Assembly (NCBI RefSeq): GCF_000186365.1
Contig: NC_014961.1
Span: 434,001 to 498,000 of the forward strand
DNA length: 64,000 nucleotides
Source: Desulfurococcus mucosus DSM 2162
Lineage (GTDB): Archaea; Thermoproteota; Thermoprotei_A; Sulfolobales; Desulfurococcaceae
Reading direction: 5' to 3'
Shown here: positions 1-4,335 of the stretch, one piece after another
How the letters are laid out: every line of letters begins with the position of its first letter
How positions within the stretch are numbered: the stretch's first letter is position 1
Notes under the pieces: model-generated
Seen by the model: only the letters and a program-made list of their open reading frames with translations
Database searches by the model: none
Told to the model about the DNA's origin: nothing
Translations under genes and position numbers: made by a program

Positions 1-563
1 GTGAGGCCTGTGAAAACACCGAAGAGAAGCGCGCTCTTTTTCTCCCCGTGCCTCATGAACTCGTTGAGTTCTGAGAGAGCGAGCATTGCCAACCCCTCCC
101 CGAGGATCCTCGTGTACTCCCAGTAAACACTTATCGTTGACACATACCCTGTTATCGAGAGGGCTGTGAGGGCTGTTGCCAACCCGGCCAGCCGGGATCC
201 TGTGAGCGAGCGGCCGAGAGCCCATGCACCCAGGGCGAAAACATAGATTGCGAGGAAGAATGATGTCTGGGCAGCGTAAGGGAAGTCGCCTGCAGCCCTC
301 CCTATTAAATATATCAGGGTGAGCCCGAGCGGAGGGTAGAAGCGGAGGAGGTCGAAGCCACCGCACCACGCCGGGGTATACGGGCCATAGGCGTCAAGTT
401 CGCGGGCCCACTCAATGTAGTATGCGATTGTTGCATCCCGGAATCGCCCAGCCGAGTAGCTGGGTAAACCAGTGGTTGAGAGGAGGGGGTGGGCCACTAG
501 CACCGTCATTAACGCTACGAGGAGCTGGGAGAGGAGCTCGTAGATTACTTCACGAGTATTCAT
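1..563 (-). CDS. GT-C-like polytopic membrane protein (partial, C-terminus outside window)
   Basis: The frame runs off the left edge; only the N-terminal ~187 residues are visible. It begins at the ATG at 561-563, overlapping the last 14 nt of the archaeosortase gene, so translation is probably coupled. An N-terminal hydrophobic helix is followed by a polar loop with YYIEWARELDAYGPYTPAW and LRFYPPLG, then further hydrophobic helices. This layout (helix, loop with acidic and aromatic residues, then an FYPP-type motif) is typical of GT-C-fold membrane glycosyltransferases and their relatives, which use polyprenyl-phosphate sugars at the outer membrane face. Family membership is inferred by pattern only. 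Last visible gene of the archaeosortase operon, so a role in surface glycan or glycoprotein assembly is plausible. Confidence 0.6.
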   Translation of the reverse strand, partial: MNTREVIYELLSQLLVALMTVLVAHPLLSTTGLPSYSAGRFRDATIAYYIEWARELDAYGPYTPAWCGGFDLLRFYPPLGLTLIYLIGRAAGDFPYAAQTSFFLAIYVFALGAWALGRSLTGSRLAGLATALTALSITGYVSTISVYWEYTRILGEGLAMLALSELNEFMRHGEKKSALLFGVFTGL

Positions 564-1125
564 TGATAATCCACCCTGGGCCAGTCCTCCTTAACCAGGG
601 TATTATTTCCCTGTACAACCAGTCAAGCCATAGTACGAGGGCTAAGGCCAGCATGATGGCTCCACCTATGGTGTCGTGGATTATTCTGAAGGCGATGGGG
701 CCGAAGAAAACCCCGGCCACCGCTGAAGCCTCTATCCTAACCATGTTCACCACCAGCATTACGAGGAGATGCACGGGGAGAACCCTGGCCTTCACCCTTA
801 GCCGTACACCGGGTGTGGACAGCACGAGGAGCCCGAGAACCACTGGGGCGAAGACACCTGTGCAGTCAGGCGTCATTATCACTGTTACAGCGTGGCTCAT
901 GCGGTGTAGGATTAAAGTATCGGGGGAAACCCTCACTGTGTGTATACCTATGTAGCCCGCTATGAACTCTAGGATGCTTAGTTCTCCGCCTATGAGGAGC
1001 AGTGAGATAGGGTCAAGTGTGAGGATGTAGGCTAGAACAGTGGCTACTACTACGCCGGTTAGGAAGGTGTAGAAGACCCTGCCTCCTGCTGTCTCCTCAG
1101 TACCTGTATAGGTCACGGTACTCAC
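550..1125 (-). CDS. Archaeosortase/exosortase-family transmembrane transpeptidase
   Basis: 191 residues, almost all hydrophobic, with several membrane helices. The three family signatures are in order: Cys88 in PDCTG, Arg130 in NMVRI and His150 in FRIIHD. This Cys-Arg-His arrangement at the outer membrane face is the known catalytic set of exosortases and archaeosortases, which cut a C-terminal sorting signal and join the new end to a membrane or cell-wall acceptor. The gene overlaps the upstream GT2 gene (29 nt) and the downstream GT-C-like gene (14 nt), so it is part of a coupled operon. The first gene of the operon encodes a protein with a fitting C-terminal signal. The length is near the short end for the family. 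The substrate pairing is inference. Confidence 0.85.
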   Translation of the reverse strand: MSTVTYTGTEETAGGRVFYTFLTGVVVATVLAYILTLDPISLLLIGGELSILEFIAGYIGIHTVRVSPDTLILHRMSHAVTVIMTPDCTGVFAPVVLGLLVLSTPGVRLRVKARVLPVHLLVMLVVNMVRIEASAVAGVFFGPIAFRIIHDTIGGAIMLALALVLWLDWLYREIIPWLRRTGPGWIINEYS

Positions 1126-2413
1126 CTCTCTTACTTGTAACCACCCATTTAACCCCGCCTGGTAGAATACCCTTGACTGTGCCAGCCACGTGCATTAGGG
1201 CGAGGTAGTAGATCATTGGGATAGCGTAGAGGGCTGTGATCACGGTATCCTTGTACCTGTAGCCTTCAAGCATTGCGCCAGCTATGAGCAAGGTCTCTAT
1301 TCCCAGGAGCCATAGGTAGACCCCTATAGGCCACGGCATCCTGAGATGGGAGCCTGTCACGAGATAGTGGGCTAAGGGAGCCAAGGTGTTCACATAGACC
1401 CAGACACCGTTAGTGAAGTATAAGCCTTGTAAAACATATCCAAGCTTAGCCGTTCTTGAAAGCCCCTTGCACGCTAGGATCTCTAGGAAGGTGCTGGCGA
1501 ACTCTGACAGCGTGCCAGCAGCCCATCGAACCTGCTGCCTCCACAGGGCTCTATGCGTCTTCGGTACAGCACCGCTTGCAGCGGCTTCATGGGTGGCCAG
1601 GATCTTAAAGCCCGGTATCTCCATACTGGAATCTATCGTCAGCCTCCAGTCTTCGGCGAGGCTTCCGGGGCGGAACCTCACTCTCTCGAAGACCCTTCTA
1701 CTGATGAGGCCGCAGGAGCCGGTGAAGATAGGGTATAGTCCATCACGGTAGCGGCCCACGAGGTTAACTATGGAGCCAGCTGTCGAAGCCCTGTAGAGTG
1801 TGCCTATAACAGTATCAGAGCCTTTCCGGTGTCTCTGATACCCTTGCACCACGTGTGCATCGTGGTCGAAGGCGAGGGAGACAAGCTTCCACACCATGCC
1901 TGGCTCTATCTCGAAATCCGCGTCCAGGATCAACACGTAGTCAACGTGTTCAACACTCAGCAAGTACTCGATGGCATCGTTGAGGGCCCCGGCTTTAAGG
2001 CCCTTCCTCCCCTTTCTCCTGTAATGCACGAGCTTTACACGGCTTCTGAGACTAGCATTGGAGAGCTCGTGGAGCAGGTCTTCGTCATCGGAGTCGTCGA
2101 CTACTACGACAACGGTGTTAGGGTAGTCGATGCCCTGTAGGCTTTTTATGGAGGCTAATACCTCGTAGTCGTTGTAAACAGGGATCAGTATTCCGACCTT
2201 CGGCCACATGCTTTGAGGCATCTTCTCCAGTAAGCGGGCTGGCTTCGGGGGGCCGAGGCGGATGAACGCGATGAAGCTGGAGATATACCACGCTGCGTAA
2301 ACCCCTAGTACGGCGGATGAGACTATGTATAGCACTATGGAGGCGTTCACAGTGAAATCTAGTAGGAAACGCCTCCACGCCTCTAGTTCTGCATACCAGT
2401 ATGAGTTCAACAT
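1097..2413 (-). CDS. Membrane family 2 glycosyltransferase
   Basis: 438 residues. A membrane helix at ~25-52 precedes a cytoplasmic GT2 domain starting at ~72 (GILIPVYNDYEV). The metal-binding DAD is at 164-166, the ED catalytic pair at 254-255 (LAEDW) and a QxxRW motif at 293-297 (QQVRW). At least three C-terminal helices follow. This is the architecture of processive or polyprenyl-linked GT2 enzymes related to cellulose and hyaluronan synthases, which use a nucleotide sugar. Start ATG at 2411-2413, 6 nt after the stop of the regulator gene. In bacteria, exosortases commonly sit with exopolysaccharide glycosyltransferases, so the gene may build the glycan that carries or decorates the sorted protein (inference). 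Confidence 0.85.
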   Translation of the reverse strand: MLNSYWYAELEAWRRFLLDFTVNASIVLYIVSSAVLGVYAAWYISSFIAFIRLGPPKPARLLEKMPQSMWPKVGILIPVYNDYEVLASIKSLQGIDYPNTVVVVVDDSDDEDLLHELSNASLRSRVKLVHYRRKGRKGLKAGALNDAIEYLLSVEHVDYVLILDADFEIEPGMVWKLVSLAFDHDAHVVQGYQRHRKGSDTVIGTLYRASTAGSIVNLVGRYRDGLYPIFTGSCGLISRRVFERVRFRPGSLAEDWRLTIDSSMEIPGFKILATHEAAASGAVPKTHRALWRQQVRWAAGTLSEFASTFLEILACKGLSRTAKLGYVLQGLYFTNGVWVYVNTLAPLAHYLVTGSHLRMPWPIGVYLWLLGIETLLIAGAMLEGYRYKDTVITALYAIPMIYYLALMHVAGTVKGILPGGVKWVVTSKRGEYRDLYRY

Positions 2414-2419
2414 CTTTCC

Positions 2420-3574
2420 TCAGCCACAGTGCTCTAGGACTGCTTCACGTTCCTTTTCAAGAAGCTTTGCGAGACGAGTTATGCTCTCAGTAGGCAGGTT
2501 GAGTGCCTCTGAAACCCTCACGGGATCCGGGTCTTCCAGCAAAGACTTCGCCGCGATGCAGAAGTATGGATCCTCCCTCGATAGTCTTGAGGCGAGGCTC
2601 TCCACCCCGGTCGGCCCTGAGGCGAAGTAGAATAATGATTTCCTCCACTTGAAAGAGGAGATGATCCCTCTGGACTCAAGCACGTATAGGTGCCAGGAGA
2701 GCGTGGCCTTCGGCATATTTAAAAGCCTCAACAGTTCGCTCATGGTTACCGCGCCTCTTGCTTCAAGAGCCCTCATTATTTCCCGCCTAGCCGGGTGAGC
2801 TAGGGCTTCATCAGCCTCAAGCTTCAGCCGGGCCGGGGGGAGGACTACAAGCCCCTGCGGCCTCCTGGTTCTTGGAAGGGATAGCTGGGAGACGGCTACG
2901 GCTGATGCTAAGACAGCTATCACCGGTAATGCTATTGAGTATTTCACCTGGCTTCCACCGGGTTCCCAGGGCGGTGCAGTCAGGGATTTCAACAGTAGCT
3001 CCAGGTAGTAGGGGTCATGGGTGTCGCAGTACGCCCAAGCTATGTTTAAAGGCACCACGATGATTAAACCCTTGCCCACGTGGAGATAGTATATGCCTCC
3101 ATGCTCCTCCACCCCCTCCCCGAATAATAGGAGGGCCTTGTACTTCGACACATTGTAACTACTGGGAACCCCTGGTTTCAGCGGCGAGTCGTATACAATT
3201 ATCCTTAAAGGCGTCTCCTGCTGTAAGACCGGGTAAAGCATCATGAAGCCGTTAAAGGTGGTGACAACCCTCCCCCCGGATACAGCGTAGTCTACTGTAG
3301 CCTTTGCCACGGCTCCAGCGAGCTCCGCCTTGCTTGAACCATAATTCGGGTCTACGAGGATTACATGGCTCCACTCCAGGGACCTCAAGGCCTCCGTAAA
3401 GTTCTCGAGTCCAGCTGTAGAGGGCTTGAAGCCGTAGGCATTCGACACGGCTGTGATGTACTCGTAGTCACATGTGTCTGTAGCAAGAATGAGGATGCTT
3501 GACTGGGTTGCCGACGCTTTAAAGCATGGGAGTAGGAGTATTGATAAAAAGAGGACGAGGAGCCAGTGCTTCAA
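2420..3574 (-). CDS. Membrane-anchored protein with outside sensor-like domain and cytoplasmic ArsR-type winged helix
   Basis: 384 residues. A signal peptide (1-22) leads into an outside domain of ~190 residues with an alpha/beta look, loosely like a glutamine-amidotransferase-type fold. One membrane helix follows at 212-233, then an arginine-rich stop-transfer, then an ArsR-like winged helix at ~251-320 (HPARREIMRALEARG, MSELLRLLNMPKATLSWHLYVLE). The DNA-binding domain would face the cytoplasm and the sensor the outside, so this looks like a one-component membrane regulator. Its ATG overlaps the stop of the substrate gene by 4 nt. It could control its own operon through the palindrome near the promoter. 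Function is inferred from architecture. Confidence 0.7.
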   Translation of the reverse strand: MKHWLLVLFLSILLLPCFKASATQSSILILATDTCDYEYITAVSNAYGFKPSTAGLENFTEALRSLEWSHVILVDPNYGSSKAELAGAVAKATVDYAVSGGRVVTTFNGFMMLYPVLQQETPLRIIVYDSPLKPGVPSSYNVSKYKALLLFGEGVEEHGGIYYLHVGKGLIIVVPLNIAWAYCDTHDPYYLELLLKSLTAPPWEPGGSQVKYSIALPVIAVLASAVAVSQLSLPRTRRPQGLVVLPPARLKLEADEALAHPARREIMRALEARGAVTMSELLRLLNMPKATLSWHLYVLESRGIISSFKWRKSLFYFASGPTGVESLASRLSREDPYFCIAAKSLLEDPDPVRVSEALNLPTESITRLAKLLEKEREAVLEHCG

Positions 3575-4263
3575 GCCCTGCTCCTCCTTCCCGCCAACAT
3601 AGATGTGCCTGCAGCGATCACGGGGAGGGCTGATAACGCGAGCACTGAGAGGGGAGTTACCTCCGGGACCTCGGAGCCGTTTACATATACTGCGCTGGCT
3701 ACAGCGTCCAAGTACTCGGTGTTTAAGTCTAGGTTCAATGCTTTACTGCTGCTGGCTGAGACCCCTGCAACCACTATATCGCTTCCATCAACAACACCGT
3801 TTATAATGGTTGCCCCATTGAAAACTAGGTAGGTCCACCCACTGGGGGAAGGCTGTACATGAATGCTTAGGCTTGAGGAAATAGCGTTAACGTCAACCCG
3901 GAACCCCGCCTTTAACACCATGTCTCTGGTTGTTACCAGCATGCCGTTGACATATATGCTGTCCACCCAGAGCCTCTTAATATCGAGATACCCGTCGCTA
4001 CCTATCCACATCTTGCCAGGTCCATTGGCGTCGTTGATGTTGAAAACAACGGTATCCCCTTCTTTCACATATATTACTCCGCTACTCGACAAGTCTATTG
4101 ATCCACCCTGAATCACTTTGACCTGGAGTTGCCCGCTCACAGTCCAATTCCGCCACGATGTGTTAAGGAGAACACTACTTGAAGCCTGCGCCACAACCAT
4201 GGCAGGTAGCAGGGTTAACGCTGTAAGCAACAGTGTTAACACTGTTATTCTGGGAGAGAGCAT
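3571..4263 (-). CDS. Secreted protein with C-terminal archaeosortase sorting signal (candidate substrate)
   Basis: 230 residues from the ATG at 4261-4263, which has GGTGGTC just upstream; a GTG three codons earlier is less likely. A signal peptide ends near VVAQA. The body is beta-rich and Asn/Ser-rich with several N-glycosylation sequons. The end is tripartite: VPEVTP (~199-204), a hydrophobic helix, then the basic tail RRSRA. This resembles the PEF- and VPxxxP-type signals cut by archaeosortases. First gene of the operon containing an archaeosortase, with a 4-nt overlap to the next gene, so it is the obvious candidate substrate. The body matches no family I recognise. Confidence 0.72.
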   Translation of the reverse strand: MLSPRITVLTLLLTALTLLPAMVVAQASSSVLLNTSWRNWTVSGQLQVKVIQGGSIDLSSSGVIYVKEGDTVVFNINDANGPGKMWIGSDGYLDIKRLWVDSIYVNGMLVTTRDMVLKAGFRVDVNAISSSLSIHVQPSPSGWTYLVFNGATIINGVVDGSDIVVAGVSASSSKALNLDLNTEYLDAVASAVYVNGSEVPEVTPLSVLALSALPVIAAGTSMLAGRRSRA

Positions 4264-4281
4264 TAAGACCACCTTTCTTCC

Positions 4282-4335
4282 GGTTTTTTTAAGTCTTCAT
4301 GAAGATGTATTTTTGCTTATAAACTTTATAGTCCG
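4282..4335 (-). promoter_or_regulatory. Promoter and candidate operator of the archaeosortase operon
   Basis: On the minus strand an A/T-rich box lies at about 4317-4334 (CTATAAAGTTTATAAG) and a second one at 4282-4292 (CTTAAAAAAAC). Between them is a perfect 12-bp palindrome, TCTTCATGAAGA, at 4294-4305. With the distal box used, transcription would start near 4299, inside the palindrome, as expected for an operator. The membrane-tethered winged-helix protein encoded by the second gene is a candidate binder (inference). Confidence 0.5.

Follow-up and report, generated by a model that had tools for sequence, protein, structure and literature searches.

The subject of this analysis is a set of five genes at the left edge of a 64,000-nucleotide stretch (the window) of the Desulfurococcus mucosus DSM 2162 genome, which consists of a single contig of 1,314,639 bases (window, G000:C1:434001-498000). 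The genes are packed on the minus strand at window positions 1-4305, with intergenic distances ranging from a 6-nt gap to a 29-nt overlap (Table 1), and they encode a putative exported sorting substrate, a membrane-tethered winged-helix protein, a GT2 glycosyltransferase, an archaeosortase-superfamily protein and a GT-C-like membrane protein. All five are present at the spacing described by an earlier reading of the DNA letters (the original prediction), which had proposed a compact archaeosortase operon at this position. The last gene crosses the window edge and extends to G000:C1:432872 (L002:8872-10563), giving a product of 563 residues in total.

Table 1. Features of the D. mucosus operon, in window coordinates.
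Feature	Position	Strand	Details
Exported substrate gene	3571-4263	minus	ATG start, 230 aa; ORF list extends to GTG at 4272
C-terminal sorting signal, EVPEVTP-LSVLALSALPVIAAGTSML-AGRRSRA	3574-3672	minus	residues 201-233 counted from GTG
Membrane-tethered winged-helix regulator gene	2420-3574	minus	4-nt overlap with substrate stop
GT2 glycosyltransferase gene	1097-2413	minus	6-nt gap to winged-helix gene; PF00535, 62.2 bits
Archaeosortase-superfamily transmembrane protein gene	550-1125	minus	191 aa; 29-nt overlap with GT2 gene if GTG start correct
GT-C-like (PTPS_related) membrane protein gene	1-563 in window	minus	14-nt overlap with archaeosortase gene; first 187 of 563 aa
TATA-like promoter element, TATAAAGTTTATAAGC	4315-4330	minus	upstream of substrate gene; based on sequence
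12-bp perfect palindrome, TCTTCATGAAGA	4294-4305		candidate operator, lead only; just downstream of the operon's TATA-like box

Relatives of the operon were located by searching with the enzyme and scanning with the GT2 alignment; three to five cassettes were aligned per protein, and metagenome-derived genomes may be incomplete. The five-gene cassette was found in D. mucosus and in three further genomes, each of another family (G039, S141_84 and DRTY-1). The cassettes of Desulfurococcales S141_84 (L075) and Thermoproteota DRTY-1 (L076) have the D. mucosus order of substrate, winged-helix protein, GT2, archaeosortase and GT-C protein, with tight overlaps in all three, and the order in G039 (L022) is GT-C protein, substrate, a gap of ~1.4 kb, winged-helix protein, GT2 and archaeosortase. 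A short contig of Pyrodictiaceae S143 (L078) holds a partial cassette of substrate and GT2, which are separated by a toxin-antitoxin-like HEPN/nucleotidyltransferase pair encoded on the opposite strand (L078:2354-3341). Small archaeal genomes are densely packed, and unrelated envelope genes can become neighbours by chance; here, however, the same five genes recur in four families against a 197-genome background, and other archaeal families repeat the gene set, its order and the tail. The arrangement exceeds chance, and conservation refutes this explanation and leaves it a negligible probability. The functional unit foreseen by the original prediction thus holds as a cassette shared by four families.

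The 191-residue protein, which had been proposed to be an archaeosortase, scores above the cut-off of the superfamily model TIGR04178 (41.2 bits against 23), as do all four cassette enzymes, and its predicted Cys88, Arg130 and His150 lie at the positions named and are invariant in an alignment of five relatives. Two outcomes had been named beforehand as speaking against this assignment, namely lack of any archaeosortase model match and homologues without the Cys/Arg/His residues, and neither was observed. The set is comparable to Cys173, Arg214 and Arg253, which are essential in Haloferax ArtA (PMC9263693). With the Pfam model Exosortase_EpsH (PF09721, cut-off 25.7 bits), the D. mucosus enzyme scores 17.9 bits, under the cut-off, and the G039 homologue reaches it at 30.5 bits. 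None of the named archaeosortase subfamily models (ArtB, C, D, E, F, H) reaches its cut-off for the cassette enzymes, the best being ArtD for D. mucosus (22.4 bits, cut-off 125) and ArtB for G039 (42.7 bits, cut-off 150). Assignment to ArtB-H, XrtG, XrtH or XrtX was rejected, every model being under its cut-off. In a tree with several long branches, the cassette enzymes group together in one clade (support 98/96). The original prediction had further named euryarchaea as the group from which described archaeosortases are best known; this agrees with the literature searched, in which archaeosortase function is described almost only in haloarchaea and methanogens, but the superfamily itself is common among Thermoproteota (161 of 398 genomes) and, within the order, is found in 14 of 59 genomes; most of these proteins are longer and of other types. 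What is rare in Thermoproteota is the cassette, not the archaeosortase superfamily.

As judged from sequence and hydropathy, the D. mucosus substrate comprises a signal peptide, an all-beta domain and a C-terminal EVPE sorting tail, a tripartite signal in which the EVPE motif is followed by a hydrophobic helix and arginines at the extreme C-terminus. Signal peptide, beta-rich domain and EVP tail are common to five substrates (D. mucosus, L075, L076, L078 and L022), and residues E201, V202 and P203 are invariant in all five while the tail helix diverges. The tripartite signal stands at the extreme C-terminus in D. mucosus, L076, L078 and L022; the L075 substrate continues for ~20 further residues past the basic end of its tail. 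The other cassette tails read VPEAPLP, VPEFSP, VPEIGLFP and VPTAAP, so VPxxxP spacing is not kept in all, and the four cassette tails that were scanned, with an E limit of 10, matched none of the described CTERM models, those for PEP-CTERM included.

We next consider how tail and enzyme are distributed among the 197 genomes of the class. A cassette enzyme profile identified four genomes at E <1e-60, and a profile of the C-terminal tail identified the same four at E <1e-13, with a single strong tail per genome; no second tail was detected in D. mucosus by the tail profile at E up to 10. Both profiles were built from the cassette sequences themselves, and matches to the cassette genomes are therefore expected. 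The informative part is that elsewhere in the class the enzyme never occurs without the tail or the tail without the enzyme, and that each cassette genome has a single tail. The original prediction's suggestion of a dedicated substrate is supported by one strong EVPE tail in each cassette genome and none as strong in other genomes. A more distant enzyme (8e-9) is found in G007 with its own GT2 and winged-helix proteins, and the tail profile is sensitive enough to detect unrelated VPE-type tails in G415 (E 4e-4), although it gave no second tail in D. mucosus. On contig C5 of G415, at ~355.5 kb (L148) and ~371.9 kb (L149), two giant proteins with open frames of ~1,600 aa bear PEP-CTERM-like tails (VPESG..TRRNR and VPEPG..TRRKRP), and the same contig carries an archaeosortase with a 577-residue frame; a many-substrate VPE system may thus exist in another crenarchaeal family.

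These distributions bear on whether the enzyme is a peptidase at all. Homologues of exosortases are frequently encoded in exopolysaccharide loci, and few of them have been studied by experiment; in the JAADER genome, GT2 and enzyme persist with no EVPE protein next to them. This would fit an archaeosortase-family protein that is a membrane part of a glycan pathway, with the EVPE tail an ordinary membrane anchor. This explanation appears very improbable, as the EVP residues are invariant in five tails whose helices diverge, the tail is found only where the cassette enzyme occurs, and the Cys/Arg/His residues are invariant. From these sequence comparisons, the pairing of substrate and archaeosortase is very likely to be real.

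The predicted structure of the substrate has a pLDDT >90 over most of the beta domain. Comparison of the fold with the PDB gave no significant match (Foldseek best E 0.02, with low probability; best Z 4.2 with a second aligner), and the D. mucosus domain has no Pfam match. It is, however, homologous to accessory domains in a GH12 protein (E 3e-22) and a GH5 protein (1e-15), whose catalytic domains beside the substrate-like domain were confirmed by Pfam. In these two proteins (GH12, L068:2974-4956; GH5, L073:4989-8321) the beta domain is present as an unnamed accessory domain, making it a candidate new carbohydrate-binding module. Its repeated company with GH5 and GH12 catalytic domains suggests that the domain may bind carbohydrate, and on the strength of this company we consider it reasonably likely that the substrate is carbohydrate-associated. 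The G039 substrate also bears an SNase domain; separately, D. mucosus encodes an 847-residue exported SNase-domain protein elsewhere in its genome (L072:2059-4602; G000:C1, ~104-106.6 kb).

In the GT2 protein, the motifs DD, DxD, ED and QxxRW, the motif set of processive beta-glycosyltransferases, are invariant in an alignment of three cassettes, and hydropathy shows flanking membrane segments. It scores 72.8 bits with the PgaC/IcaA model, under the model's cut-off, and is closer to PgaC/CelA models than to the XrtG GT2 model. Identity to the D. mucosus GT2 is 45-49% for those of the other cassettes and 29% for the next genomic relative. The full-length GT-C protein just passes PF10131 (30.2 bits, cut-off 26.4), with homologues in three cassettes. 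That the substrate anchors a polymer produced by the GT2 is, in our estimate, as likely as not.

The same evidence could describe a slime locus first and foremost, in which the GT2 would produce the polymer of a capsule or slime, with the GT-C protein modifying that polymer, and the archaeosortase-anchored protein would be only a lectin-like, non-covalent tether. A QxxRW-type GT2 and a substrate domain found beside GH5 and GH12 would fit this, as would the mucous polymer reported around D. mucosus cells and absent in D. mobilis (PMC3111991). Yet D. mobilis has 99.88% average nucleotide identity to D. mucosus, the two being regarded as strains of one species (PMC4711178), and Pyrodictium-like and other cassette carriers have no slime on record in this analysis; we regard this explanation as possible but not probable. 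From the species phenotype and the GT2 motifs, the cassette might underlie the mucous coat that gives D. mucosus its name.

Another explanation takes its model from Haloferax, where ArtA substrates gain a C-terminal lipid (PMC7157517): the D. mucosus substrate would be lipid-anchored likewise, and the glycosyltransferases would merely glycosylate it or make an unrelated surface glycan. The substrate has three N-X-S/T sequons, and the alternative, a protein-glycan bond, is only putative. On the other hand, the cassette has no lipid-synthesis gene (pssA/pssD), the GT2 motifs are those of a polymer synthase and not of a typical N-glycan enzyme, and glycosyltransferase genes accompany the enzyme in every complete cassette, all of which makes lipid anchoring with incidental glycosyltransferases doubtful.

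Comparison with known systems places the cassette among, yet apart from, several of them. By gene content, the closest is exosortase G (XrtG) of Gram-positive bacteria, which in Lactiplantibacillus (L. plantarum) comprises a CTERM protein, an exosortase and two glycosyltransferases (PMC12854382); both systems combine one dedicated CTERM protein, a small exosortase-family enzyme and two glycosyltransferases (PMC12854382). The cassette enzymes show a weak likeness to the XrtG model TIGR03110 (L075, 35.2 bits; L022, 30.7; D. mucosus, 18.5), XrtG-associated models do not match the cassette GT-C proteins, and the cassette differs in its tail, its extra membrane-tethered winged-helix protein and its archaeal host without peptidoglycan. 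With Haloferax ArtA/PGF-CTERM it shares the superfamily, a tripartite C-terminal signal and catalytic Cys and Arg (PMC9263693, PMC7157517). ArtA, however, acts on many substrates, goes with a PGF motif and has Arg as the third of its residues; the cassette enzyme is shorter, has His in that position and a single substrate, and is encoded beside glycosyltransferases. The D. mucosus VPEVTP literally fits the V-P-x-x-x-P of ArtB/VPXXXP-CTERM, whose model TIGR04144 is second-best for the G039 enzyme at 42.7 bits, but the cut-off is 150 bits and the D. mucosus enzyme scores 18.6. Bacterial PEP-CTERM/EpsH systems share a VPE-type motif, helix, arginines and a link to exopolysaccharide, and differ in that they typically have many substrates, in that the cassette tails have no PEP-CTERM model match and in that the D. 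mucosus enzyme is under the PF09721 cut-off.

The winged-helix protein consists of an N-terminal signal or anchor, an ectodomain, a hydrophobic stretch (residues 209-234) and an ArsR-type winged helix (residues 248-322), which matches HTH_20 (44.6 bits, cut-off 27) and HTH_5 (30.6 bits, cut-off 22) and the fold of ArsR proteins (Z 12.4, rmsd 1.3 over 68 residues). The predicted structure of the ectodomain is too low in confidence to name a fold; from the architecture, the protein may or may not sense an external ligand, and we hold the two equally probable. G007 encodes a version of this regulator without the ectodomain (L024:10993-11445, E 1.2e-39). A sequence upstream of the L076 cassette, ACTATAAAATTTTTAAA, is similar to the D. 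mucosus TATA-like element. Palindromes such as that at 4294-4305 are present in 3.1% of random 80-bp stretches, and this one is not repeated in the other cassettes; a conserved operator was accordingly rejected.

Taken together, we consider that the cassette is probably a self-contained archaeosortase system that serves one substrate, is linked to the synthesis of a surface glycan and has its own regulator. The substrate would be exported and then held by its tail helix, Cys88 would attack the backbone at or near VPE, and the new C-terminus would be passed on, with an archaeal lipid or a lipid-linked glycan as the acceptor, steps that follow from superfamily membership. The substrate would then stay on the surface, where its domain may bind or tie down a polysaccharide made by the GT2; the glycosyltransferases and the substrate domain both point to a surface polysaccharide bound by or joined to the substrate. 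The GT-C protein would work on the outer face, and the winged-helix protein may relay an envelope signal to the operon promoter. Bacteria offer a precedent in a PEP-CTERM protein that, when overexpressed, keeps exopolysaccharide on cells (PMC9850573). A covalent bond between protein and glycan seems unlikely. Still less likely is the full scheme in which the archaeosortase joins the substrate C-terminus covalently to the glycan of the cassette's own glycosyltransferases, as a regulator-controlled archaeal protein-polysaccharide anchoring pathway.

Several observations weigh against a self-contained, one-substrate system of this kind. In JAADER (L023), neither an EVPE tail nor a winged-helix gene lies beside the GT2 and enzyme, and a genome-wide tail search gave no convincing EVPE tail, showing that parts of the cassette can separate. 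XrtG-specific models stay far under their cut-offs (TIGR03110, 18.5-35.2 versus 102.75 bits; TIGR03111, 27.5 versus 363.95), so the cassette is no member of XrtG. Since the substrate fold found no significant PDB match, the argument for carbohydrate binding comes solely from the company of the domain, and in two of the four homologues the second membrane segment of the regulator is too weak in hydropathy to reach the threshold. The evidence for the system comes from sequence and predicted structures.

The surroundings of the operon hold further features. Beyond its 3' end, outside the window, a ParA-like ATPase gene and a weak integrase N-terminal SAM-like fragment adjoin it (L002:6727-8044), a possible mobile-element remnant that could account for the patchy distribution of the cassette. 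An ARAGORN search of the window and L002 gave no tRNA that could mark an integration site close to the operon, although intron-bearing archaeal tRNAs may escape it, and in an empty-site comparison with two other Desulfurococcus genomes the flanking gene was missing in one and near a contig end in the other. A gene for a sugar-nucleotide epimerase, likewise outside the window, is broken by ~240 nt with several in-frame stops (L002:2302-3459). In G039, a cannula protein gene (L022:8205-8744) starts 148 nt after the archaeosortase gene; its product has CanX as best PDB match (E 4.6e-68) and matches CanA too.

The literature searched leaves open the substrates and acceptors of crenarchaeal enzymes, and a five-gene unit with one substrate, one enzyme, two glycosyltransferases and a regulator narrows this question to few proteins. 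The XrtG-like gene content suggests that the combination of a one-substrate exosortase and two glycosyltransferases recurs as a module in both domains of life, so that findings in either can guide work on the other. The near-identical D. mucosus, with slime, and D. mobilis, without it, offer a natural comparison, and a covalent glycan-anchoring pathway, if true, could explain the surface slime of D. mucosus. The cassette gives crenarchaea a testable protein-sorting pathway.

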